Origin: Aquimonas voraii
GTDB taxonomy: Bacteria; Pseudomonadota; Gammaproteobacteria; Xanthomonadales; Xanthomonadaceae
NCBI RefSeq assembly: GCF_900101825.1
Contig: NZ_FNAG01000007.1
Coordinates: 62,001-126,000, forward strand
Direction: 5' to 3'
DNA: 64,000 nucleotides
Shown: one piece after another, positions 36,236 through 45,971 of the stretch
Position numbering within the stretch: the first letter of the stretch is position 1
Layout: each line of letters starts with the position of its first letter
Notes under the pieces: generated by a model
Database searches by the model: none
What the model was told of the DNA's origin: nothing
Seen by the model: only the letters and a program-made list of their open reading frames with translations
Made by a program: the position numbers and the translations under genes

Positions 36236-38323
36236 ATGCCGCGTCATCCGCTCAGCCTCGCCGTCGCCGTCCTCCTGCCGGGCCTTGCGCTTGGACAGAA
36301 CCCAGGCAGGGCATCGCACGATCTTGACCGTGCAAAGCAACTCGACGAACTGATCGTCACCGCCAGCCCGCTGCGCTCGAACGCCGAGAACGTCGTGCAG
36401 CCGGTCGAGATCCTGGCCGGCGAGACCCTGGACGACCGTCGCGCCGGCACCTTGAGCGAGACGCTGTCCGGCGTGCTAGGCGTGCAGACCTCATTTTTCG
36501 GCACCGGCGTCGGCCGGCCGATCATTCGTGGCCAGGAAGGCGCGCGCGTGCAGGTGCTGAACGAAGGCATCGGCAGCCTCGACGCCTCGACGACGAGCGT
36601 GGACCACGCGGTGAGCATCGATCCGTTCCTGGCGGACCAGATCGAGGTGCTGAAGGGCCCGGCCACGCTTCTGTACGGCCCGGGCGCGATCGGCGGCGCC
36701 GTGAACGTCGTCGATGGTCGGGTTCCCACGTTGCTACCCGAGGCAGCGATCAGCGGCCGCGCCGAACTTCGCGCGGGCAGCGTCGCCGACGAGCGCAGCG
36801 GCATGCTCCGTCTGGACGGGGCGCGCGGCCGCATCGCCTGGCATCTCGACGGCTTCCGCCGCGACACCGCCGACTACGAGATCCCGGGCTACGCGCGGCA
36901 TGCGCACGACGATGCGCATGAGGAGCATGACGAGCCCGGACACGAGGACGAGGAGAATCCCTTTGGCCTGCTGCCGAACAGCGCGGTCGACAGCCGCGGC
37001 GGCGCCGCAGGCGCCAGCTACATCGGCGAACGTGGCTTCATAGGGCTTGCGCTGAGCCGCTTCGAATCCCTGTACGGCGTGCCCGGCCACGCCCACCACG
37101 CGCACGAAGAGGACCACGACCCTGCGCATGGCCTCGACAAGGCCGAAGAAGAGGAAGAAGAGGTGCGCATCGATCTCGGGCAGACGCGCTGGGATCTGAA
37201 GGCGGGCCTGTTCAATCCCCTTGCCGGCATCGAGTCGATGAACCTCCGCATCGGCGCCAACAACTATCGGCATTTCGAACTGGAGGGCGAGGAGATCGGC
37301 ACCCGCTTCGACAACGACGCCGTGGAAGCCCGCGCGGATCTCGTGCATGCCCCCATCGGCGGCTGGCAAGGCGCGCTTGGCGTGCAGACCTCGCGCCGCG
37401 ACTTCAGCGCGCTGGGCGAAGAAGCTTTCGTGCCGCCCTCGCTGTCGCGCGACCTCGGCCTGTTTCTGATCGAGGAGCAGAACCTCGACCGCTGGAAGCT
37501 GGAATGGGGCCTGCGCGCGGACCGCGTGCGGATCGAGGCGGATGGCCATGAGCGCCGCAGCTTCTCCGGCTTCAGCGCCTCCGCCGGCGCGCTGTTCCGC
37601 CTCAACGAGGCACTGCACTTCAGCGCCGGCTTCGATCGCGCGGAGCGCGCCCCGAACGCCGAGGAACTGTTCTCGGACGGGCCACACCTGGCGACCCGCG
37701 CCTACGAGCTCGGCAATGCCGCGCTCGGCAGTGAGACCGCCCGCCAGCTCGAACTGGGTCTGCACCTGCACGCCGGTCCGCTGAGCGGCAAGCTGTCGGC
37801 GTACCGCAACCGGATCGACGACTTCATCTACCAGGCAAACACCGGCGCAGAGGAAGAGGGCCTGCCGGTGCTGCAGTGGTCGCAGGCCGATGCAACCTTC
37901 CACGGCATCGAGGGCGAGCTGAAGTGGGCGATGTTCGACAATGCCAGCGGCGCGTGGAGCCTGCGCCTGTCTGGCGATGCGGTAAATGCCAGCCTGGATG
38001 CCGGCGGCGCGCTGCCGCGAATCGCCCCCGACCGCACCGGCCTCGCCTTGGACTGGAGGCTGCAGGGCTGGCGCGCCAGCATCGATGCGCAGCGCTACGC
38101 GACCCAGAATGCGGTCGCCGAGTTCGAGGAGCCCACCGCCGGTTTCAGTCTGCTGAACGCCAGCGTGGCCTACCACTGGGACGTGCAGAACTTTGGCTGG
38201 GAAGTCTTCCTGCGCGGCAGCAACCTCGGCAACCGTGAGGCGCGCATGCACACCTCGGCGCTGAAGGAGGACGCCCCGCTGCCCGGCCGCAATCTGGTGG
38301 TCGGCCTGCGCGCGTTCTTCTGA
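36236..38323 (+). CDS. ZnuD-like TonB-dependent zinc receptor
   Basis: A 695-residue outer-membrane receptor with signal peptide, TonB-box-like DELIVTASPLRS (about 37-48), a complete plug (LKGPATLLYGPGAIGGAVNVVDG) and a barrel ending GRNLVVGLRAFF. Two extracellular loops are extraordinarily rich in His, Asp and Glu (about 221-241 and 285-309), including HAHDDAHEEHDEPGHEDEE, as in ZnuD zinc receptors, where such loops capture zinc. ATG 36236 has GGAG at 6 nt. A Zur-like operator upstream supports induction under zinc starvation. Nickel or other metals cannot be excluded on sequence alone. Confidence 0.88.
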   Translation: MPRHPLSLAVAVLLPGLALGQNPGRASHDLDRAKQLDELIVTASPLRSNAENVVQPVEILAGETLDDRRAGTLSETLSGVLGVQTSFFGTGVGRPIIRGQEGARVQVLNEGIGSLDASTTSVDHAVSIDPFLADQIEVLKGPATLLYGPGAIGGAVNVVDGRVPTLLPEAAISGRAELRAGSVADERSGMLRLDGARGRIAWHLDGFRRDTADYEIPGYARHAHDDAHEEHDEPGHEDEENPFGLLPNSAVDSRGGAAGASYIGERGFIGLALSRFESLYGVPGHAHHAHEEDHDPAHGLDKAEEEEEEVRIDLGQTRWDLKAGLFNPLAGIESMNLRIGANNYRHFELEGEEIGTRFDNDAVEARADLVHAPIGGWQGALGVQTSRRDFSALGEEAFVPPSLSRDLGLFLIEEQNLDRWKLEWGLRADRVRIEADGHERRSFSGFSASAGALFRLNEALHFSAGFDRAERAPNAEELFSDGPHLATRAYELGNAALGSETARQLELGLHLHAGPLSGKLSAYRNRIDDFIYQANTGAEEEGLPVLQWSQADATFHGIEGELKWAMFDNASGAWSLRLSGDAVNASLDAGGALPRIAPDRTGLALDWRLQGWRASIDAQRYATQNAVAEFEEPTAGFSLLNASVAYHWDVQNFGWEVFLRGSNLGNREARMHTSALKEDAPLPGRNLVVGLRAFF

Positions 38324-38946: not shown

Positions 38947-39513
38947 CTAGTCGCGCAGCGGCACATCCCACAGCAGCACGCCATCGCGCAGGCTCAGCAG
39001 GTGCTCGCCGGCCTCAACACCAGGGCCCAGGCGCAGGCTGCGCGCGCGCACGCCGCCAACGCCGTCGGCCAGCAGATCAGTCACTTCGCCAACGATGTCG
39101 AGGCGCCAGCGGATCTGGCCGCCGTCCATCGCCACTGCCAGCAGCTGGGTGCGGGTCTCCTGCCCTTCCATCTCGCCGCCGCGGGCAAGCGCGAGGTAGA
39201 GCAGCTCGCGGTCGTCGACGAGCGCGGTCACCGCGCCTTCGCCGAGACCGAGGATCCAGGCTGTGCGGCCCTGCGCATCAAAAAACCTGAGTTCCACCTC
39301 TGGCGGTTGCCGGCTGTCATCGGCCACCAGCCGCTCGCTGACCAGCACGGTGTTGCCGCGGGCGTCCGCCCACAGTCCGCGCGCGCTGAGCTCACCCGAA
39401 ACAGCCGGCGCCGCCTGCACGTCGGCACTGCCGGACTGCACGGCGCTGACCAGGGCCGCCAGCGTCAGGGCCAGTACGGCGATCGGCACCAGGGCACGCA
39501 CGGAGAACGACAT
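38947..39513 (-). CDS. Exported or membrane-anchored protein of unknown function
   Basis: A 188-residue protein with one N-terminal hydrophobic segment (LVPIAVLALTLAALVSAVQ) followed by a beta-rich domain (GLWADARGNTVLVSERLVADD, WILGLGEGAVTALVDDRELLYLALA, LLSLRDGVLLWDVPL). The pattern of repeated short strands ending in W/L-D resembles PQQ-like or WD-like beta-propeller blades, but only two or three could be present. GAGGAAA lies upstream of the ATG. It is divergent from the kinase that heads the next operon, with about 230 bp between starts, so it could be controlled with it. Confidence 0.55.
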   Translation of the reverse strand: MSFSVRALVPIAVLALTLAALVSAVQSGSADVQAAPAVSGELSARGLWADARGNTVLVSERLVADDSRQPPEVELRFFDAQGRTAWILGLGEGAVTALVDDRELLYLALARGGEMEGQETRTQLLAVAMDGGQIRWRLDIVGEVTDLLADGVGGVRARSLRLGPGVEAGEHLLSLRDGVLLWDVPLRD

Positions 39514-39743
39514 CGGCGGTTTCCTCGCAGGGGCGCCGCGGGGCGGCTTTCTGGCCTGTAGGAAACCACGTGCCTGCCGCGCATTCAGTCCGCCAAATGT
39601 GGCGCCTGCGTAGGCCCGGCCGGGCAGCGCTCCGCATGTGTGCGCAGTTTGTACGGGCTTTGTAGCGCCGGCCTCGGCAGCGTCGTCACCGTGCTAGCGT
39701 GCGCATCCTCGACAGCACGCCTCCGCCCACCCAACAACACGCC

Positions 39744-41318
39744 GTGTCCAGCCTGTTCGTCCGCCTCTACGTGGGCCTGATCCTGGCGATGCTGCTGATC
39801 GCCGGCGGCGTGGTGGCGACGCTCAGCCTGCTCGAAGCCCAGCGCGCCGCGCGCTACCGCGAGGCCGTGCTGTCGGCGCCGATGCAGCTGATGGCCGAGG
39901 GCGTCGCCCGCCACGCGGGCGAGGAACGGCAGCGCTGGATCGACATCGCTGCACGCCTGCTGACCTCCGAACTGCGGGTGGAGACCACGCCGCAGCCGCC
40001 GAGCGAGCTGGTGGTCGAGCGCATGGGCGAGCAGCAACACCGCGCCCGTCTCGCCCTGCCCGGCAGCGACAACGAGCAGCTCGTGCTGCTGTTCCAGAAC
40101 TGGACTGAACAGCAGTGGCGGGCCACGACCTTCCTGCTGCTCAACGAACTGGGCCGTCTGCCGGCTGGCGAACAGCGTGAGGCCCTGCAGCGGATCGCCG
40201 ACCGCCTGCCCTACCCGCTGCGCCACCTGGGGCTCGACGAGGTCGATCTCGACCCGCGCCAGCGCGAGCGCATCGCCGCCGGCGAAGTGGTGATGCAGAT
40301 CGAATGGCGCGACGGCGGGCGCCCCAGCACACGCTTCTTCGCGCCCTATGGCGAGCGTGGCGACGTGCTGGCCGTAGGCCCGGTGCCGAGCCTTGGACCG
40401 CTGCCGGCCTCGACGGTGCTGATGCTGATCGTGGCGGCCGCATTGGCGTTCTCGGGCGTCGCCGTGTGGGCCATCCGCACGCTGGAGCGACGGCTGCAGC
40501 ACATCGACCGCGCACTGGCGCGCTTCGGCGCTTCCGACTTCGAACTCGGCGAGCTGGGCCCAGCCTCCCCCGATGCCATCGGCCGCCTGGCCCAGACCAC
40601 CCACCGCATGGCCGGGCGCATCCGCAGCCTGCTTCGATCCCAGCAGGAACTGGTGCAGGGCATCTCGCACGACCTGCGCACGCCGGTGGCGCGGGTGCGC
40701 CTGCGCCTCGAACTGCTGCAGGCCGATGCCAGCCAGCAGGAGCGCATCGCCGGCATCCGCCGCGACCTCGACGAACTGGAAAGCCTGATCGACGCCGCGA
40801 TCACGTATTCGCGCCTCGACGAGGGCGGGATTGTGCTCGCCTCGCAGCCCATCGATGTCGCCCAGGAGCTGCGCGCGGTGGTGCAGGACCAGCGTGTGCT
40901 GGCGCGGGACATCGAGCTCTCGACCGATCTGCAGGTGCCGGCGCGGCCGCTTGCCGCCGATCGTGCCCTGCTCAGGCGGGCGGTGCAGAACCTGCTGGGC
41001 AACGCCCTGCGGCATGCGCGCTCGCGCGTCGAGGTTGAACTGCGCGAAGCGGTCAGCGGAATCAGGATCGCGATCGAGGACGACGGCCCGGGCGTGCCCG
41101 AGAGCCAGCGCGAGCGCATTTTCGAGCCGTTCTCACGACTGGACGAGAGCCGCAGCAAGGCCTCCGGGGGTTACGGGCTCGGGCTGGCGATCGTCCGCCG
41201 GATCGCCGAGCGGCACGGCGGCCGGATCGCCTGCGGCGCTGCCCGTCTCGGCGGGGCCCGCTTCGAGCTGGAGCTGCCCTGGGGGATCGCCAGCGCCCAC
41301 TCGCCTGCACATCCATGA
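39744..41318 (+). CDS. RstB-like sensor histidine kinase
   Basis: A 524-residue membrane kinase: helix at about 5-29, a periplasmic domain of about 200 residues, a second helix (STVLMLIVAAALAFSGVAVW) and a HAMP domain (RALARFGASDFELGELGPAS). The phosphoacceptor His309 lies in QGISHDLRTPVARVRLRLELL, with ATPase motifs NLLGNALRHARSR, DDGPGVPESQ and GGYGLGLAIVRRIA. The arrangement and HDLRTPVARVR sequence are those of RstB kinases. I favour GTG 39744 (SSLFVRLYVG), as RstB-type proteins begin just before this helix; GTG 39699 would add 15 residues. Its regulator is encoded two genes downstream rather than next to it. Confidence 0.88.
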   Translation: MSSLFVRLYVGLILAMLLIAGGVVATLSLLEAQRAARYREAVLSAPMQLMAEGVARHAGEERQRWIDIAARLLTSELRVETTPQPPSELVVERMGEQQHRARLALPGSDNEQLVLLFQNWTEQQWRATTFLLLNELGRLPAGEQREALQRIADRLPYPLRHLGLDEVDLDPRQRERIAAGEVVMQIEWRDGGRPSTRFFAPYGERGDVLAVGPVPSLGPLPASTVLMLIVAAALAFSGVAVWAIRTLERRLQHIDRALARFGASDFELGELGPASPDAIGRLAQTTHRMAGRIRSLLRSQQELVQGISHDLRTPVARVRLRLELLQADASQQERIAGIRRDLDELESLIDAAITYSRLDEGGIVLASQPIDVAQELRAVVQDQRVLARDIELSTDLQVPARPLAADRALLRRAVQNLLGNALRHARSRVEVELREAVSGIRIAIEDDGPGVPESQRERIFEPFSRLDESRSKASGGYGLGLAIVRRIAERHGGRIACGAARLGGARFELELPWGIASAHSPAHP

Positions 41319-41337
41319 ACAGCTACACTCGCGCGCT

Positions 41338-41706
41338 ATGAAGACCCTGCCTCTCGCGCTGTTGGCTGTCCTGACCTGCCCGGCCCTGGCGTCCGCCCAG
41401 GCCGCAGACCCCGCAGCCGACGCCCGCGAAACCACGCCCGACAAGGCCATGGCGCTCGCGACGGTGGCTGCCAAGCCCGCTGCCGAGGACTGGGGCATCT
41501 GGAACCGCGCGCCGCGGCGCGCCGGGCGCGATCCGCTGCTGGCTCTGGGCCAGCGCGAGCGCGCCCCCACCCCCGAACCGATCGACGCCGCCGCCCGCGG
41601 CGATTCCACCTCCGGCACCGCCGGCCGTGGCGACATCGATCTGAATGCCTGGGACAGCGGCCGCATCGAACTGCCGCCGCCGCCCAAGCCCGATGCTGGC
41701 AACTGA
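41338..41706 (+). CDS. Small exported protein between kinase and barrel genes
   Basis: A 122-residue protein with a clear signal peptide (MKTLPLALLAVLTCPALASA) and an otherwise charged, Ala/Pro-rich sequence with no cysteines: EDWGIWNRAPRRAGRDPLLALGQRER and DIDLNAWDSGRIELPPPPKPD. It looks intrinsically disordered. I know no family for it. It starts 19 bp after the kinase gene and its end overlaps the next start, so it is part of the operon. A role as a periplasmic signal, modulator or client of the beta-barrel protein is a guess from context. Confidence 0.65.
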   Translation: MKTLPLALLAVLTCPALASAQAADPAADARETTPDKAMALATVAAKPAAEDWGIWNRAPRRAGRDPLLALGQRERAPTPEPIDAAARGDSTSGTAGRGDIDLNAWDSGRIELPPPPKPDAGN

Positions 41707-43024
41707 GCGCGGTCCAAGCCGCCCCTCCCTACCCCACGCCCCCTGGCTGCGCACGCCGCTGCGGGTTCTGTGTGCCTGCATCTGCCTGCTGGCGCTGGCC
41801 GCGCCCGCGCCCGCCGTATCGTTCGACTGCAGCGATGCGGACCGCTGCCTGCAGTCCGCCTTGGAGGCGCGAGAGCGCGAGGGCGAACAGGCTGCGCTCG
41901 CCCGGCTCGACGTCCTGATCGCCACCCACCCACAACGCCTGCGAGCGCGCGCCGAACGTGCGCTGAGCCTGTACCGCCTGCATCGCATGCAGGAAAGTAT
42001 CGATGAGATTGACGGTTTGCTCGCCCGCGATCTGCCGCGCAACGTGCGCGCCAACCTGCAGGCTCTGCGCGACGAAGCCCGCTACCGCCTGACCTCGCGC
42101 TCGACCACCCGCTTCGGCCTGCGCGTCGCGCTGGGCCATGACGACAATGTCGCCAGCTTCGCCGACTTCGATGCCCGTCGCGAAGGCAGCAGCACGGCGA
42201 TCGGCACAATTGGAGGGCGGCCCGACGAGTACGCCGAGGCCGGCGGCCGCATACGTCTGCGCAGCGTCGGCGTCGGCCGCTTCAACAGCCGCTTCGACGC
42301 CGACCTCAACCTGCGCAACTACCACCGTGAGAACGCATTCGACCTGCAGGACCTGCGCCTGCGCGGCGGCGTCGAGTGGCGGCCGAGCGGCCTGTTCGGC
42401 ATGTCGCTGGCGCCCGGCCTGCGCCACCTGCGCCGCGCCGACGATGCCCTGCTGAGCGACGGCAGCCTAGAGCTGGCGGCAGGCCTGAGCCATGACCCGC
42501 TGTCGCTGCGGCTCGGCGTGGAGCGCGCCTGGCGTCGCTACGACAGCTCAGCCTTCAGCGGCCTCGATGCCGACCACTGGGCCGGCAGCCTGCGCAGCCA
42601 ACTGCTGTTCGGCCGCGAGATCCAGTGGTGGGTGGCTCTGGATCTGGAGTACCGCGAAGAGGCCGCGCGCAACCCGGTGCAGTCGCGCGACCTCAAGCGC
42701 TCAAGCCTGCATGCCGGCCGCAGCAGCGAGCACCAGGAGTGGTCGCTGAGCCTCGATGACAGCCGCTACCGCTATGGCGGACGCAACCAGCCCCCCTTCG
42801 CCTATCTGCCGGGGTTCGCGGTCGCCGACGGCGACCCGCCAAGCCCGGTGGCGGTCGGCGTCGACCGCTTGATCTATCGCAGCCTGGAAGCACGCTACCG
42901 CTACCACCTCGACACGCGCTGGAGCCTGCAGCTGCGACTGCGACGGCAGCTGTCGGCGATTGGCGGCGTCGAGACCTCCTTGGACCGCACCAGCATCGAC
43001 ATCGGCATCGAATGGAACCGTTGA
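41693..43024 (+). CDS. TPR-like plus outer-membrane beta-barrel protein (SLAM/DUF560-like architecture)
   Basis: A 443-residue exported protein. After a signal sequence with a short hydrophobic core (RVLCACICLLALAAPAPA), about 100 helical residues look like TPR repeats (EGEQAALARLDVLIATHPQRLRARAERALSLYRLHRM). From about 130 on, alternating-pattern strands dominate (RFGLRVALGHDDNVASFADF, RSVGVGRFNSRFDADLNLRN, LRLGVERAWRRYD, IDIGIEWNR), consistent with a 12-16-stranded barrel. N-terminal TPR plus barrel is the layout of surface lipoprotein assembly modulators and of PgaA/BcsC ends; which, if either, is uncertain. The ATG lies inside the preceding gene and the stop overlaps the regulator start (TGATG). 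Confidence 0.68.
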   Translation: MLATERGPSRPSLPHAPWLRTPLRVLCACICLLALAAPAPAVSFDCSDADRCLQSALEAREREGEQAALARLDVLIATHPQRLRARAERALSLYRLHRMQESIDEIDGLLARDLPRNVRANLQALRDEARYRLTSRSTTRFGLRVALGHDDNVASFADFDARREGSSTAIGTIGGRPDEYAEAGGRIRLRSVGVGRFNSRFDADLNLRNYHRENAFDLQDLRLRGGVEWRPSGLFGMSLAPGLRHLRRADDALLSDGSLELAAGLSHDPLSLRLGVERAWRRYDSSAFSGLDADHWAGSLRSQLLFGREIQWWVALDLEYREEAARNPVQSRDLKRSSLHAGRSSEHQEWSLSLDDSRYRYGGRNQPPFAYLPGFAVADGDPPSPVAVGVDRLIYRSLEARYRYHLDTRWSLQLRLRRQLSAIGGVETSLDRTSIDIGIEWNR

Positions 43025-43788
43025 TGAGCGAATTCGCTGACACCGACAACCCGCGCCTGCTGGTCGTCGAGGACGACCCCGAACTCGGCAGCCTGCTGCA
43101 GGAATACCTGGGCGCGCAGGGCTACAGGGTCGACCTCGAACCGAATGGACGCGCCGCCGTCCAGCGCATCCTCGGCGAACCCTATGCGCTGGTGATCCTC
43201 GACCTCATGCTGCCGGGCGAAGATGGCTTCGGCATCTGCCGGCAGGTGCGGCCCCACTTCCACGGCCGCATCCTGATGCTGACCGCGCGCGAGGACAGCA
43301 TCGACCAGGTGCTGGGCCTGGAGCTGGGCGCCGACGACTACGTGCGCAAGCCGGTCGAACCGCGCGTGTTGCTGGCGCGGGTGCGCGCCCTGCTGCGGCG
43401 GGAACTGGCGGCCGGCAACTCCCTGCCCGGCGCCGCGCCCACCGCCTCGATACAGGCGCCGGCGGTGCTCAGCGTCAGCGGCATCACCCTCGACGAGGGC
43501 GCGCATGAGGTGCGCGTGCACGGCGAGCCGGTCGACCTCACCGAGGCCCAGTTCGGCCTGCTGAGGCTGTTCCTGAAGAATGCCGGAGTGGTGTTGTCGC
43601 GGCAGGAGCTGTTCAGCGGGCTGCGCGGCATCGACTACGACGGCCAGAACCGCGGTATCGATCTGCTGGTCTCGCAGCTGCGCGCTCGCATCGGCGACGA
43701 TCCCACCCAGCCGCGCCTGATCAAGACCATCCGCGCCCGCGGTTACCTGTTCGCCCGGCCGGGCGAAGAGCCGCGCGGCGAGGGCTGA
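43024..43788 (+). CDS. RstA-like OmpR-family response regulator
   Basis: A 254-residue regulator: receiver domain with VVEDDPELG, phosphoacceptor Asp60 in LVILDLMLPGEDG, and conserved Lys in YVRKPVEPRVLLARVRALLRR. An Ala/Pro linker precedes the winged-helix domain (VDLTEAQFGLLRLFLKNAG, LRARIGDDPTQPRLIKTIRARGYLF). It is the natural partner of the RstB-like kinase three genes upstream, forming a kinase-unknown-barrel-regulator operon. The ATG at 43024 overlaps the barrel gene stop; an in-frame ATG at 43012 is less likely. Confidence 0.9.
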   Translation: MSEFADTDNPRLLVVEDDPELGSLLQEYLGAQGYRVDLEPNGRAAVQRILGEPYALVILDLMLPGEDGFGICRQVRPHFHGRILMLTAREDSIDQVLGLELGADDYVRKPVEPRVLLARVRALLRRELAAGNSLPGAAPTASIQAPAVLSVSGITLDEGAHEVRVHGEPVDLTEAQFGLLRLFLKNAGVVLSRQELFSGLRGIDYDGQNRGIDLLVSQLRARIGDDPTQPRLIKTIRARGYLFARPGEEPRGEG

Positions 43789-43804: not shown

Positions 43805-45478
43805 CTACTCGTAGTTGTCGACGGCCTCTTCGTCGCCGAGCGGCTCCTCGGCGCTTTCGACTTCGCTGCCGATCCGCGCGTCCTCCAGCGCGTCCGCCGG
43901 CGCCTCGCCGTTGGCGGGTGGACGCCCGGCGTCCTCCTCGTAGGGCAGCACCGCCTGGCCGGTCTCGGCCTGGTTGACCGCCCCGGTCTCGCTGGTTTCC
44001 TCGCCGAGGTGGAAGATCGCATAGCCCGGCAGCACCACCTGGTTCAGGGCCATGCCGATCACCCGCCCGGACACGCTGGCGACGATGTCGGTTTCGGCGT
44101 TCTCCAGCGGATCGACGATCACCCCGATGCGCTGGCCGCGCTGCACGCGGTCGCCGAGCGCCACGTCGCTGATCAGCATGCCGCCACGGTTGGCGCGCAC
44201 CCAGCGAGACTCGTAGAAGATCGCCTGCGGCTCCAGCCACTCCGGGCTGTCGCGCACCATGCCCAGTTTGTGCAGCAGGGTCAGCACGGCCTGCAGGCCG
44301 GCGTCGATCTCGCGCGGCTGCAACTCACCGGGGCCGCCGACCTCGAAGGTGACGGCAGGAATACCGGCCTGGGTCGCGGCCACCCGCAGCATGCCGCGCG
44401 AGCCTGCGCTGTGCAGCACCGGCGTGGCGCCGAAGCCGCGGGTGAACTCAAGCACATGCGGGATGCGCAGGTCGGCACGCACCTGCGGCAGGTTGATGCG
44501 GTCGAAGCTGCCGGTGTGCATATCGACCAGGGCATCGCAGTGGCGCGCCAACTGGTCAAAGAAGCTGTAGGCGATACGCGAGGCGATGCTGCCGGTCGGG
44601 CTGCCCGGGAAGAAACGATTGAGGTCGCGCCGGTCCGGCAGGTAGCGCGAGTTGCGGCTGAAGCCGAACAGGTTGACCACCGGCACGCCGACCACCGTGC
44701 CTGCCAGCGGGCTGGGCGCGACCTGCGACATCACCCGCCGCACCACTTCGACCCCATTCAACTCGTCGCCGTGCACGGCGGCGGTGAGGCAGAGCACAGG
44801 CCCCTGACGATCGCCGTGGACCACGTCCACCGGCGTGCGCATGTCGCCGCCGGCATAGGTCTGGCTGGCATTCCAGTACAGACGCGTGCGCGTGCCGGGC
44901 GCGACCTCGGCACCGAGCAGACTGAAGGCACGGATCAGCCGCGGGCCGACGAAGTCGCGGCTGTCCGGGTCGCCGGCGGGCTCGACCGCCGGCGGACCTG
45001 CATCCGGCTGCCCCGGCCAGTCGTAGGCCAGGCGTAGCCGGGTGGCCTCATCAAGCTCGGCGCTCTGGACAGCCTCGTCGGCTTCGTCCGCCGGCGATGT
45101 TCCCACTGCGTCCATGCCGGCGCCTGCGGGGCCGTCCGGCGGCGACGGCATGGGCGGACCGACGAATTGCGGATGCCCCGGGGTGGCGGCCGCTGCGCCG
45201 CCCTCAAGCGCGGGCGGCAAGGCTTCGGGCAGGACCTCGGTCTGCGCCCGCGCATCCTGCTCCAGCGCAGGCAGCGGCACGGTCTCGCCCCCTTGCGGCG
45301 GGTCGACGGCGACCGGATCCGGCCATGGCCCCAGCTCGATCGGCGGCGTGAGCCGCTGCTGCGGAGGCTCGACCGCCTGGGTCAGGCCAGCGGCCAGCGC
45401 GAGCAGCAGGGCGCACCCGCTTCGCCGGCCCGCGGCGAGACCGCGGCGGGCAGCGCGGGATGCCTCAGCGGGCCGCAT
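43805..45478 (-). CDS. Exported aspartoacylase/AstE-family metallopeptidase-like protein
   Basis: A 557-residue protein with a signal peptide, a disordered Pro/Ala/Glu linker of about 130 residues, and a zinc carboxypeptidase-like domain of the succinylglutamate desuccinylase/aspartoacylase family. The zinc motif is AVHGDELNGVEV (His236 and Glu239) with the third ligand in CDALVDMHTGS. A small barrel-like C-terminal domain (NRGGMLISDVALGDRVQRGQRIGVIVDP) resembles a biotinyl-lipoyl fold, as in other family members. The last 70 residues are strongly acidic (ending EEPLGDEEAVDNYE). Periplasmic location is unusual for this family and the substrate is unknown. The ATG at 45478 lies inside the end of zur (14 bp overlap). 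Confidence 0.8.
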   Translation of the reverse strand: MRPAEASRAARRGLAAGRRSGCALLLALAAGLTQAVEPPQQRLTPPIELGPWPDPVAVDPPQGGETVPLPALEQDARAQTEVLPEALPPALEGGAAAATPGHPQFVGPPMPSPPDGPAGAGMDAVGTSPADEADEAVQSAELDEATRLRLAYDWPGQPDAGPPAVEPAGDPDSRDFVGPRLIRAFSLLGAEVAPGTRTRLYWNASQTYAGGDMRTPVDVVHGDRQGPVLCLTAAVHGDELNGVEVVRRVMSQVAPSPLAGTVVGVPVVNLFGFSRNSRYLPDRRDLNRFFPGSPTGSIASRIAYSFFDQLARHCDALVDMHTGSFDRINLPQVRADLRIPHVLEFTRGFGATPVLHSAGSRGMLRVAATQAGIPAVTFEVGGPGELQPREIDAGLQAVLTLLHKLGMVRDSPEWLEPQAIFYESRWVRANRGGMLISDVALGDRVQRGQRIGVIVDPLENAETDIVASVSGRVIGMALNQVVLPGYAIFHLGEETSETGAVNQAETGQAVLPYEEDAGRPPANGEAPADALEDARIGSEVESAEEPLGDEEAVDNYE

Positions 45479-45971
45479 TCACCGCCCCGCAGTCAGCGCA
45501 CAGGCCGTGCACTTCGAGCGTCTGCGCGTGCGGCTCGAAGCCGAGTGCGCGCGCCTGCTGCAGCAGCAGGCGGGTCACCGCCTCGTCTTCCAACTCCACG
45601 GTAGCGAGGCAGCGCTTGCAGATCAGGAAGGGCACCGAATGCTGGTGGCGCGGATGGTGGCAGCCGACGAAGGCGTTGATCGATTCCAGCTTGTGGATGA
45701 AGCCGTTCTCGAGCAGGAAATCGAGCGCGCGGTAAACCGTGGGCGGCGCCACCGGACCGCGCTCGTCACGCATCTGCTCCAGCAAGGCGTAGGCCTTGAC
45801 CGGCTTTTCCGCTTCGGCGATCAGGCGCAGCACCTGCTCACGCAAATGGGTCAGGCGCAGGCCACGCTCACGGCACACCGACGCCACCTCGGCGAGGTAG
45901 GCGGCGGCGTCATGGACATGGCTTTCGGGGTGGCTGCAGGCCTGCTGGCCGGGCGCGTGCGAGTGCGACAT
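45465..45971 (-). CDS. zur: Zinc uptake regulator Zur (Fur family)
   Basis: A 168-residue Fur-family regulator with a His-rich N-terminus (MSHSHAPGQQACSHPESHVHDA). The winged-helix segment LTHLREQVLRLIAEAEKPVKAYALLEQM and PTVYRALDFLLENGFIHKLESINAFVGCHHPRHQHSVPFLICKRC contain the Zur-type sensory histidines. Two CXXC pairs are present (CKRC and CADC), forming the structural zinc site. The LESINAFVGC form separates it from Fur and PerR. It represses zinc-uptake genes when zinc is plentiful; a Zur-like box lies between the MerC-like and ZnuD-like genes of this window. The start at 45971 is ATG. Confidence 0.92.
   Translation of the reverse strand: MSHSHAPGQQACSHPESHVHDAAAYLAEVASVCRERGLRLTHLREQVLRLIAEAEKPVKAYALLEQMRDERGPVAPPTVYRALDFLLENGFIHKLESINAFVGCHHPRHQHSVPFLICKRCLATVELEDEAVTRLLLQQARALGFEPHAQTLEVHGLCADCGAVNAAR

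Follow-up and report, generated by a model that had tools for sequence, protein, structure and literature searches.

Among the described systems closest to the genes reported here is CpxP, a folded helical dimer that serves as periplasmic accessory protein of a sensor kinase. In the RstAB two-component system the regulator gene stands directly before the kinase gene. The classic RstA box reads TACA-N6-TACA (PMC4117788). The Slam translocons of the type XI secretion system (T11SS) are covered by the families SlipAM (PF04575) and TPR_Slam (PF24575); the SlipAM family is 14-stranded versus 16 strands in PgaA and known T11SS cargo shares a C-terminal eight-stranded barrel (PMC8406197), while cluster 3 proteins co-occur only rarely with this C-terminal cargo domain and T11SS cargo has been predicted from gene neighbourhoods (PMC12282271). 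Here we compare with these systems an operon for a kinase, a small exported protein, a tetratricopeptide repeat (TPR)/barrel protein and a regulator. It lies in a stretch of 64,000 nucleotides from Aquimonas voraii (positions 62,001-126,000 of contig NZ_FNAG01000007.1, forward strand), called the window below; the window genome is G000, and other genomes, loci and families are likewise given by number (G, L and f).

Results

A conserved four-gene operon

The four genes follow one another on the forward strand with gaps of 19, -14 and -13 bp (Table 1), and the identical gene set with identical gaps is present in G003, a sister species in the window genus that was used for pairwise comparisons. 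Substitutions between the two genomes fall mainly at third codon positions, and the ratios of nonsynonymous to synonymous substitution (dN/dS) are 0.066 for the kinase, 0.216 for the small protein, 0.174 for the barrel protein and 0.129 for the regulator. All four genes thus show purifying selection in this comparison, which confirms the small open frame as a true gene; the four-gene operon as a whole is real and under purifying selection. The first-pass annotation, a reading of the window by a model, had the genes, the 19 bp gap and the 14 bp overlap right, but the regulator start that it placed at a TGATG junction (43022-43026) did not hold, the ATG of this junction (43024) being missing in G003. 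The regulator probably starts at the ATG at 43012 (MEPL[MN]SE...) instead, and because this start is shared with G003 the overlap between barrel and regulator genes is given as 13 bp.

The best of 89 NCBIfam families matching the kinase was RstB (276.7 bits; cut-off of 478 bits not reached), and the best of 97 matching the regulator was RstA (204.6 bits; cut-off of 330 bits not reached). The earlier description of the two as RstB-like and RstA-like therefore stands as a statement of best matches but not of family membership, and judged by these scores RstAB is the right neighbourhood, though neither protein reaches the family cut-off. A further likeness is that the presumed site of the regulator is a TACA direct repeat, if with a spacing of N7 in the window. 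RstAB is regulator-first, whereas in the window the kinase comes first and two exported genes lie between it and the regulator.

An exported-looking gene behind the kinase

Related loci were collected with several searches. Within the taxonomic order of the window the barrel search found 2/60 relatives, and among 299 genomes 8 matched, of which 2 are believable, both from the genus; the kinase at E 1e-60 was also found in 2/60 relatives. By both searches the four-gene unit is seen, within this order, in the genus only, and two other genus members, both about 75% complete, gave no barrel or kinase match. From the six non-genus genomes with a barrel match, L018 and L019 were left out of the locus comparison. 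L020-L023 had short local BLAST barrel matches only (E 5e-5 to 1e-3); the frames of L020-L022 look unrelated or antisense, L023 was judged by its BLAST match alone, and all four were dropped. A contig scan with the barrel sequence gave no relative, and no plasmid record matched the barrel of L047.

In the sample of the whole class, the kinase matched at E 1e-60 in 6/369 genomes; besides the window genome, four of these hold plain regulator-kinase pairs and G459 (locus L031) has the window gene order. Sensor profile A4, built from these loci, matched 8/295 genomes of the taxonomic order of G459. Four of the loci are kinase-first and have an exported gene, three are regulator-first pairs, and the last is L051. 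Sensor profile A5 matched 8/369 genomes of the class, three of them kinase-first (G000, G459 and G613) and five regulator-first, and 17/147 genomes (24 matches) of f150, the family of G459; all f150 matches were inspected with their flanks except L085, the second match in G1032. The window's own order is covered by the sensor profiles through its few members within the class sample.

The order kinase, small exported protein, TPR-barrel, regulator is kept in members of f150, a distant family of the same class (at a guess an Alteromonas/Colwellia-like group, marine for the most part), and the kinase-first loci of the clade are spread over four families of the class (f1, f150, f213 and f62). Fifteen loci, which we call class A (the window, L013, L031, L047, L048, L087-L092, L095-L097 and L101), have this gene order, and in eight of them an extra Cys-containing exported protein of about 100-130 aa precedes the regulator. 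The six class B loci (L098-L100, L102, L106 and, up to its contig end, L061) consist of a kinase, one very acidic exported protein and a regulator. In L094 a kinase and a small protein with an LDxS motif are followed by a further exported-looking gene, of which the contig holds the beginning, and in L093 the kinase is at the contig edge. In 23 kinase-first loci of the clade the gene immediately downstream of the kinase is visible, and in 23/23 it looks exported; a whole barrel gene is present in 15 of those 23. Export was called from N-terminal hydrophobicity, and some gaps are uncertain because gene starts across loci were chosen mechanically.

Asp and Glu make up 53-64% of the class B partners, or 36% in L061, where the frame is cut. 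These Asp/Glu-repeat exported proteins behind clade kinases are found at 6752-8287 in L098, 7353-9014 in L099, 4830-6227 in L100, 4392-5963 in L106, 4794-6095 in L102 and 8888-9523 in L061, and they are possible buffers of cations or cationic peptides.

In a tree of 34 kinases, 23 kinase-first rows are separated from 11 regulator-first rows by a branch with a support of 98/96. A quick second tree included the L051 kinases and was built without the long-branch rows L103, L061 and L049; here 22 kinase-first rows stay together (97 in the Shimodaira-Hasegawa-like approximate likelihood-ratio test, SH-aLRT), and the L051 kinases fall outside the clade among regulator-first rows, at a fork with a weak support of 71. 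The kinase sample is not random, because the regulator-first rows were taken from the same searches as the kinase-first rows. A8 omits L090, a near copy, and A9 and A11 omit L090, L099, L100, L106, L101 and more distant regulator-first kinases. Class A as a single kinase clade was rejected (approximately unbiased test, p-AU 4.5e-8), with class B lying inside it; the barrel was therefore lost, or gained more than once.

The first-pass annotation had proposed that the two middle genes are no incidental insertion, and this is upheld by the exported-looking gene behind the kinase in all 23 loci and by the translocon-related nature of the barrel. It also asked whether both genes always lie between kinase and regulator: in the kinase-first loci of the clade an exported-looking gene follows the kinase wherever the next gene is visible, but the barrel is absent from L046 and unseen in class B. 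Kinase and regulator adjacent to each other with no middle genes, named there as the finding that would make the insertion incidental, do occur as regulator-first pairs, but a supported branch of the kinase tree sets these pairs apart from the clade, and L051 is outside the clade too, if weakly placed.

The sensor region of the kinase was modelled with AlphaFold2 as two lobes (pLDDT 91.4, pTM 0.82). The first lobe resembles a PDC/CitA-type sensor domain (9heh, Z 8.2, rmsd 2.7, 90 residues) and the second the ParS sensor domain (8ju7_A, Z 7.9, rmsd 2.7, 93 residues), both at a borderline level; no Foldseek match was obtained for the model at E 0.001. A motif in this region, LNE[LI]G[RH], was present in 16/17 kinases of class A together with L046 and L093, the miss (L101) being cut by a contig end, and in 0/6 class B and 0/11 regulator-first kinases. 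On this count the sensor motif tracks the motif-bearing small protein.

The small exported protein

No Pfam or NCBIfam family matched the small protein at E 1 or better. WGxW is carried by 7/16 small proteins (window, L013, L031, L095, L096, L097 and L101) and a recognisable GVGxxG...LDxS stretch by 13/16. WG.W alone occurred in 117/20000 shuffles and the full ordered motif pattern in 0 of 20000, the pattern having been written after the sequences were known. With a profile that includes WGxW, the small proteins of L046, L047 and L089 score 17 to 22 bits. The C-terminal motif GVGxxGxxExxxNxLDxSxL was also considered as shared by the window protein and was dropped, as the profile test gave no support. 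The relation of the window protein to the others is weak at the level of its letters, and the case for homology is carried more by operon place, size and export signal.

A barrel protein distantly related to SlipAM

The barrel protein, modelled with AlphaFold2 from a 14-sequence alignment, has a signal-like helix, TPR-type helices and 14 strands (pLDDT 72.9, pTM 0.55). It had two sub-threshold Pfam matches (including TPR_9, E 0.02) and none in NCBIfam. There was no match to PF04575 at E 1 or better, and none in its own genome at E 1e-5; TPR_Slam matched below threshold in the relatives P0007, L095, L097 and L101. Structural neighbours of the barrel part are the porin CymA (Z 17.9, rmsd 4.6, 265 residues), chitoporin and OmpG, to which Foldseek adds the TPR-barrels PelBC and BcsC; the 50 matches listed in the fold searches do not include Slam. 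Because barrels of the same size resemble each other, these structural matches say little about function.

Profile comparison points to SlipAM. The SlipAM reference consisted of five PF04575 members (L107-L111), and a six-protein set added L036, itself without a PF04575 match. With hhalign, the 14 barrels matched the five PF04575 members at 99.7% (E 6.1e-27, 380 columns) and the six-protein set at 99.8% (E 3.8e-28, 381 columns), and the barrel part of the 14-barrel set matched SlipAM at 98.1%. The window pair, that is, the barrels of the window genus, matched the f150 barrels over the full length (98.1%, 368 columns), the f150 barrels matched the five PF04575 members (99.7%, 376 columns), and the window pair on its own reached 94.8% against these five over 114 columns, corresponding to the TPR half. 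Controls with the six-protein set gave 2.1% for reversed SlipAM, <=0.5% for five column shuffles and 0.2% for a TonB receptor; one other outer-membrane protein gave 64% over 110 columns. These profile scores indicate that the barrel is a distant SlipAM (Slam/T11SS) relative, reached through the f150 relatives, and not a Pfam-grade member. The search of the middle proteins against families that the first-pass annotation had called for thus returned no family for the small protein and, for the barrel, sub-threshold Pfam matches together with this SlipAM relation by profile comparison.

The barrel shares with Slam an export signal, a short TPR part, a predicted 14-strand barrel and, when aligned with its f150 relatives, a whole-length profile match. 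It differs in having no PF04575 match, a very low identity, no known cargo type adjoining and a place in a two-component operon. Because defining features of both RstAB and the type XI secretion system were looked for and not found, the operon was filed as neither.

The barrel proteins of the window genus end in ...EWNR (window 43013-43024), without the terminal Phe of the other 13 barrels. SlipAM-type TPR-barrel genes of L107, L108, L109, L111 and L036 adjoin FecR-like genes, which are Pfam-confirmed for L107 and L036 and assigned by look for L108, L109 and L111.

Candidate regulator boxes

The operon is preceded by a divergent intergenic region (39514-39743), in which a consensus scan before the kinase found no sigma-70-type promoter. 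TACA-N6/7-TACA was present before the operon in 14/16 loci (L101 and L094 being outside this sample). Altogether 30 sites were counted in 5,635 bp of pre-operon DNA, and the other 252,378 bp of these loci held 23, a density of 5.3 versus 0.09 per kb (ratio 58), or of 5.4 versus 0.13 (ratio 42) when the window and G003 are excluded, bearing in mind that intergenic DNA differs in composition from the remaining locus DNA. Dinucleotide shuffles contained any box site in 0 to 43/300 cases per locus (window 1/300, G003 0/300). The spacing is N7 in the window, G003, L095, L096 and L097, N6 in L047, L048 and L087-L092, and both in L093. The box was present in 0/5 class B promoters and before 1/4 regulator-first pairs. 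The perfect TACAAA form has one copy each in the G000 and G003 genomes, both before this operon, with one further one-mismatch site per genome, and the backwards control gave 0 matches.

Genes adjoining the operons

The intergenic region of the window is shared with a divergent gene (38947-39513, reverse strand) for an exported-looking protein of 188 aa, which has no Pfam match, is 85% identical in G003 and could be a co-target of the candidate regulator box. A TonB-dependent receptor (36236-38323; family by Pfam), ZnuD-like by look with His/Asp/Glu-rich stretches, and a Fur-family regulator (45465-45971; Pfam) flank the operon by a few kb on each side, possibly as a zinc-uptake neighbourhood. 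A protein of AstE/AspA-type family (PF24827) is encoded at 43805-45478 on the reverse strand, convergent with the operon.

A trypsin-family gene (PF00089) lies beside 11 class A loci of f150. It is divergent in L047, L048, L087-L092, L095 and L097, whereas L096 has it upstream of the kinase on the same strand, in the order protease, Cys protein, kinase, small protein, barrel, regulator. Intergenic boxes face in both directions in L047, L048, L087-L092 and L097, and one box precedes the protease in L096. The Cys-containing protein of f150, which adjoins the operon or the protease, is exported (GCT...C[RK].MP; L087 8709-9011, L096 4539-4997 and equivalents) and has no Pfam family; at a guess it acts as a chaperone or inhibits the protease.

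Table 1. Features of the four-gene operon and its upstream region (window positions)
Feature	Position	Strand	Remarks
RstA-box-like direct repeat TACAAA-N5-TACAAA	39648..39664	-	candidate regulator site; also in G003
Candidate -10 element TG-C-TAGCGT	39695..39700	+	putative; same letters in G003
Membrane histidine kinase, RstB-like, 524 aa	39744..41318	+	GTG start, also GTG in G003; 93% identical in G003
Kinase sensor region, residues 27-232	39822..40439	+	modelled; ends take in parts of membrane helices
LNELGR sensor motif	40140..40157	+	in kinases of the class with motif-bearing small protein
Small exported protein, 122 aa	41338..41706	+	signal-peptide-like hydrophobic N-terminal stretch followed by low-complexity chain
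WGIW (WGxW motif)	41491..41502	+	common to some other small proteins (7/16 rows)
TPR/barrel protein, 443 aa	41693..43024	+	exported, predicted outer-membrane; short TPR domain and 14-strand barrel
TPR-type helices, residues 49-134	41837..42094	+	AlphaFold2 model
14 predicted beta strands, residues 138-441	42104..43015	+	AlphaFold2 model
OmpR-type response regulator, RstA-like	43012..43788	+	start 43012 common to G003

Discussion

We read these genes, with about even confidence, as an autoregulated envelope-sensing two-component unit that has its own exported partner and usually a translocon-related barrel. The conserved gene unit, the exported protein paired with the kinase, the barrel type and the conserved repeats are observed; that the regulator binds, that the small protein touches the kinase and is transported by the barrel, and which way the signal runs are inferred. 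The kinase would monitor the periplasm through its two-lobed sensor, with the small exported protein encoded directly behind it as its partner, acting most likely as a periplasmic input or in feedback. The SlipAM-type TPR-barrel would be co-produced and placed in the outer membrane, where it may handle the small protein by binding it, threading it out or displaying it, so that the kinase would read a surface export step. The phosphorylated regulator would bind the TACA direct repeats before the operon and so raise the levels of the four proteins; boxes of this kind also face the divergent trypsin-family protease in many f150 relatives. The arrangement is analogous to CpxP in that a small exported protein is encoded beside the kinase, is conserved with it in 23/23 loci and presumably belongs to an autoregulated unit, and it differs in that the window protein is a low-complexity chain whereas CpxP is folded.

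Several observations weigh against this reading. The 23 loci include many near copies (L089-L092; L098-L100 with L106; L047 with L048; the window with L013), and because of these near relatives the independent cases are fewer than 23. L051 has the genes kinase, kinase, regulator with no exported gene between. The confidence of the barrel model is middling, and the barrel part of the window genus alone reaches 1.4% against the five PF04575 members (1.4 to 4.7% against SlipAM) and an unclear 26.6% against the f150 barrels. The window small protein does not rise above shuffles with the C-terminal motif profile, and with the profile including WGxW it scores 7.7 bits when the best of 2000 shuffles scores 7.6. 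No TACA-N6/7-TACA box precedes the operon in L031 and L046, and the window box has N7 and not the classic N6 spacing. The protease and Cys protein are not beside the operon in the window, L031 or L046, the rest of the window genome not having been searched for them. Finally, L046 consists of kinase, small protein and regulator, the barrel not being needed for the link between kinase and partner, and no barrel was seen in the six class B loci, L061 being cut by a contig end. Because the exported neighbour persists in L046 and class B without a barrel, the link between kinase and exported protein is tighter than that between barrel and small protein. As the pair of kinase and partner outlasts the barrel, we see the small protein primarily as a partner of the kinase in signalling and secondarily as a client of the barrel.

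An alternative is that the middle proteins are outputs only, the kinase sensing something else and the small protein being cargo secreted or displayed by the SlipAM-type barrel, as in type XI secretion. This would agree with the profile relation to SlipAM, with the overlap of small and barrel genes in 14/15 loci (5 bp apart in the other, as judged from mechanically chosen starts) and with the 14 strands of T11SS proteins (PMC8406197) and the prediction of cargo from neighbourhoods (PMC12282271). It does not account for an exported partner where no barrel is seen, and known T11SS cargo ends in an eight-stranded barrel (PMC8406197), whereas the small protein has 122 aa and no family match; we consider it unlikely, if a serious competitor. 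That the barrel instead lets solutes through or polysaccharide out, being an ordinary output of envelope stress with the small protein as a periplasmic helper, would fit its structural neighbours, which are porins (chitoporin, CymA and OmpG) and polysaccharide-export TPR-barrels (PelBC and BcsC). The short TPR part, the 14 strands versus 16 in PgaA and the profile comparison, which points to SlipAM, make this improbable, and the open frames listed around the operons showed no obvious polysaccharide synthase, though no search aimed at one was made.

ParS is a sensor of cationic peptides. The resemblance of the second sensor lobe to it, together with the Asp/Glu-repeat partners of class B and the acidic character of several class A partners, could mean that the exported partner is a buffer. 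Its acidic versions would bind cationic peptides or divalent cations, and the kinase would read how far it is filled. The window protein is near neutral (15 acidic and 13 basic residues after residue 25) and the ParS match is borderline (Z 7.9), which leaves this idea a slim chance. An incidental arrangement of genes with no shared function, to which the plain pairs formed by related kinases and regulators (11 regulator-first loci in the tree) and L051 without middle genes would point, is disfavoured and very improbable in view of the order conserved across families of the class, the one-sided kinase tree and the shared promoter boxes.

If the envelope-sensing reading is taken further, the operon could represent an undescribed kind of signalling: a two-component pair would come with a translocon-type barrel of its own and a dedicated small exported messenger, and the kinase would measure the passage of this messenger through the outer membrane. 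It would extend across distant Gammaproteobacteria-like families and in f150 be coupled through regulator-type boxes to a trypsin-family protease and a Cys-containing exported protein. This extension is tentative, and we think it rather doubtful. None of the titles and abstract beginnings listed for the open-licence literature describes the four-gene unit, and the main texts of two open-licence T11SS papers do not contain 'histidine kinase' or 'two-component'.

In one clade of RstB-like kinases, then, the gene directly behind the kinase is kept for an exported partner of low complexity, accompanied in most of the loci seen by a SlipAM-related barrel. Two questions, what the input of an RstB-type kinase is and what cargo is carried by T11SS-type barrels outside the best-studied cluster, are thereby joined in one operon. 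Both become directly testable there, because concrete sites are at hand in the regulator boxes and in the motifs of the sensor and the small protein.

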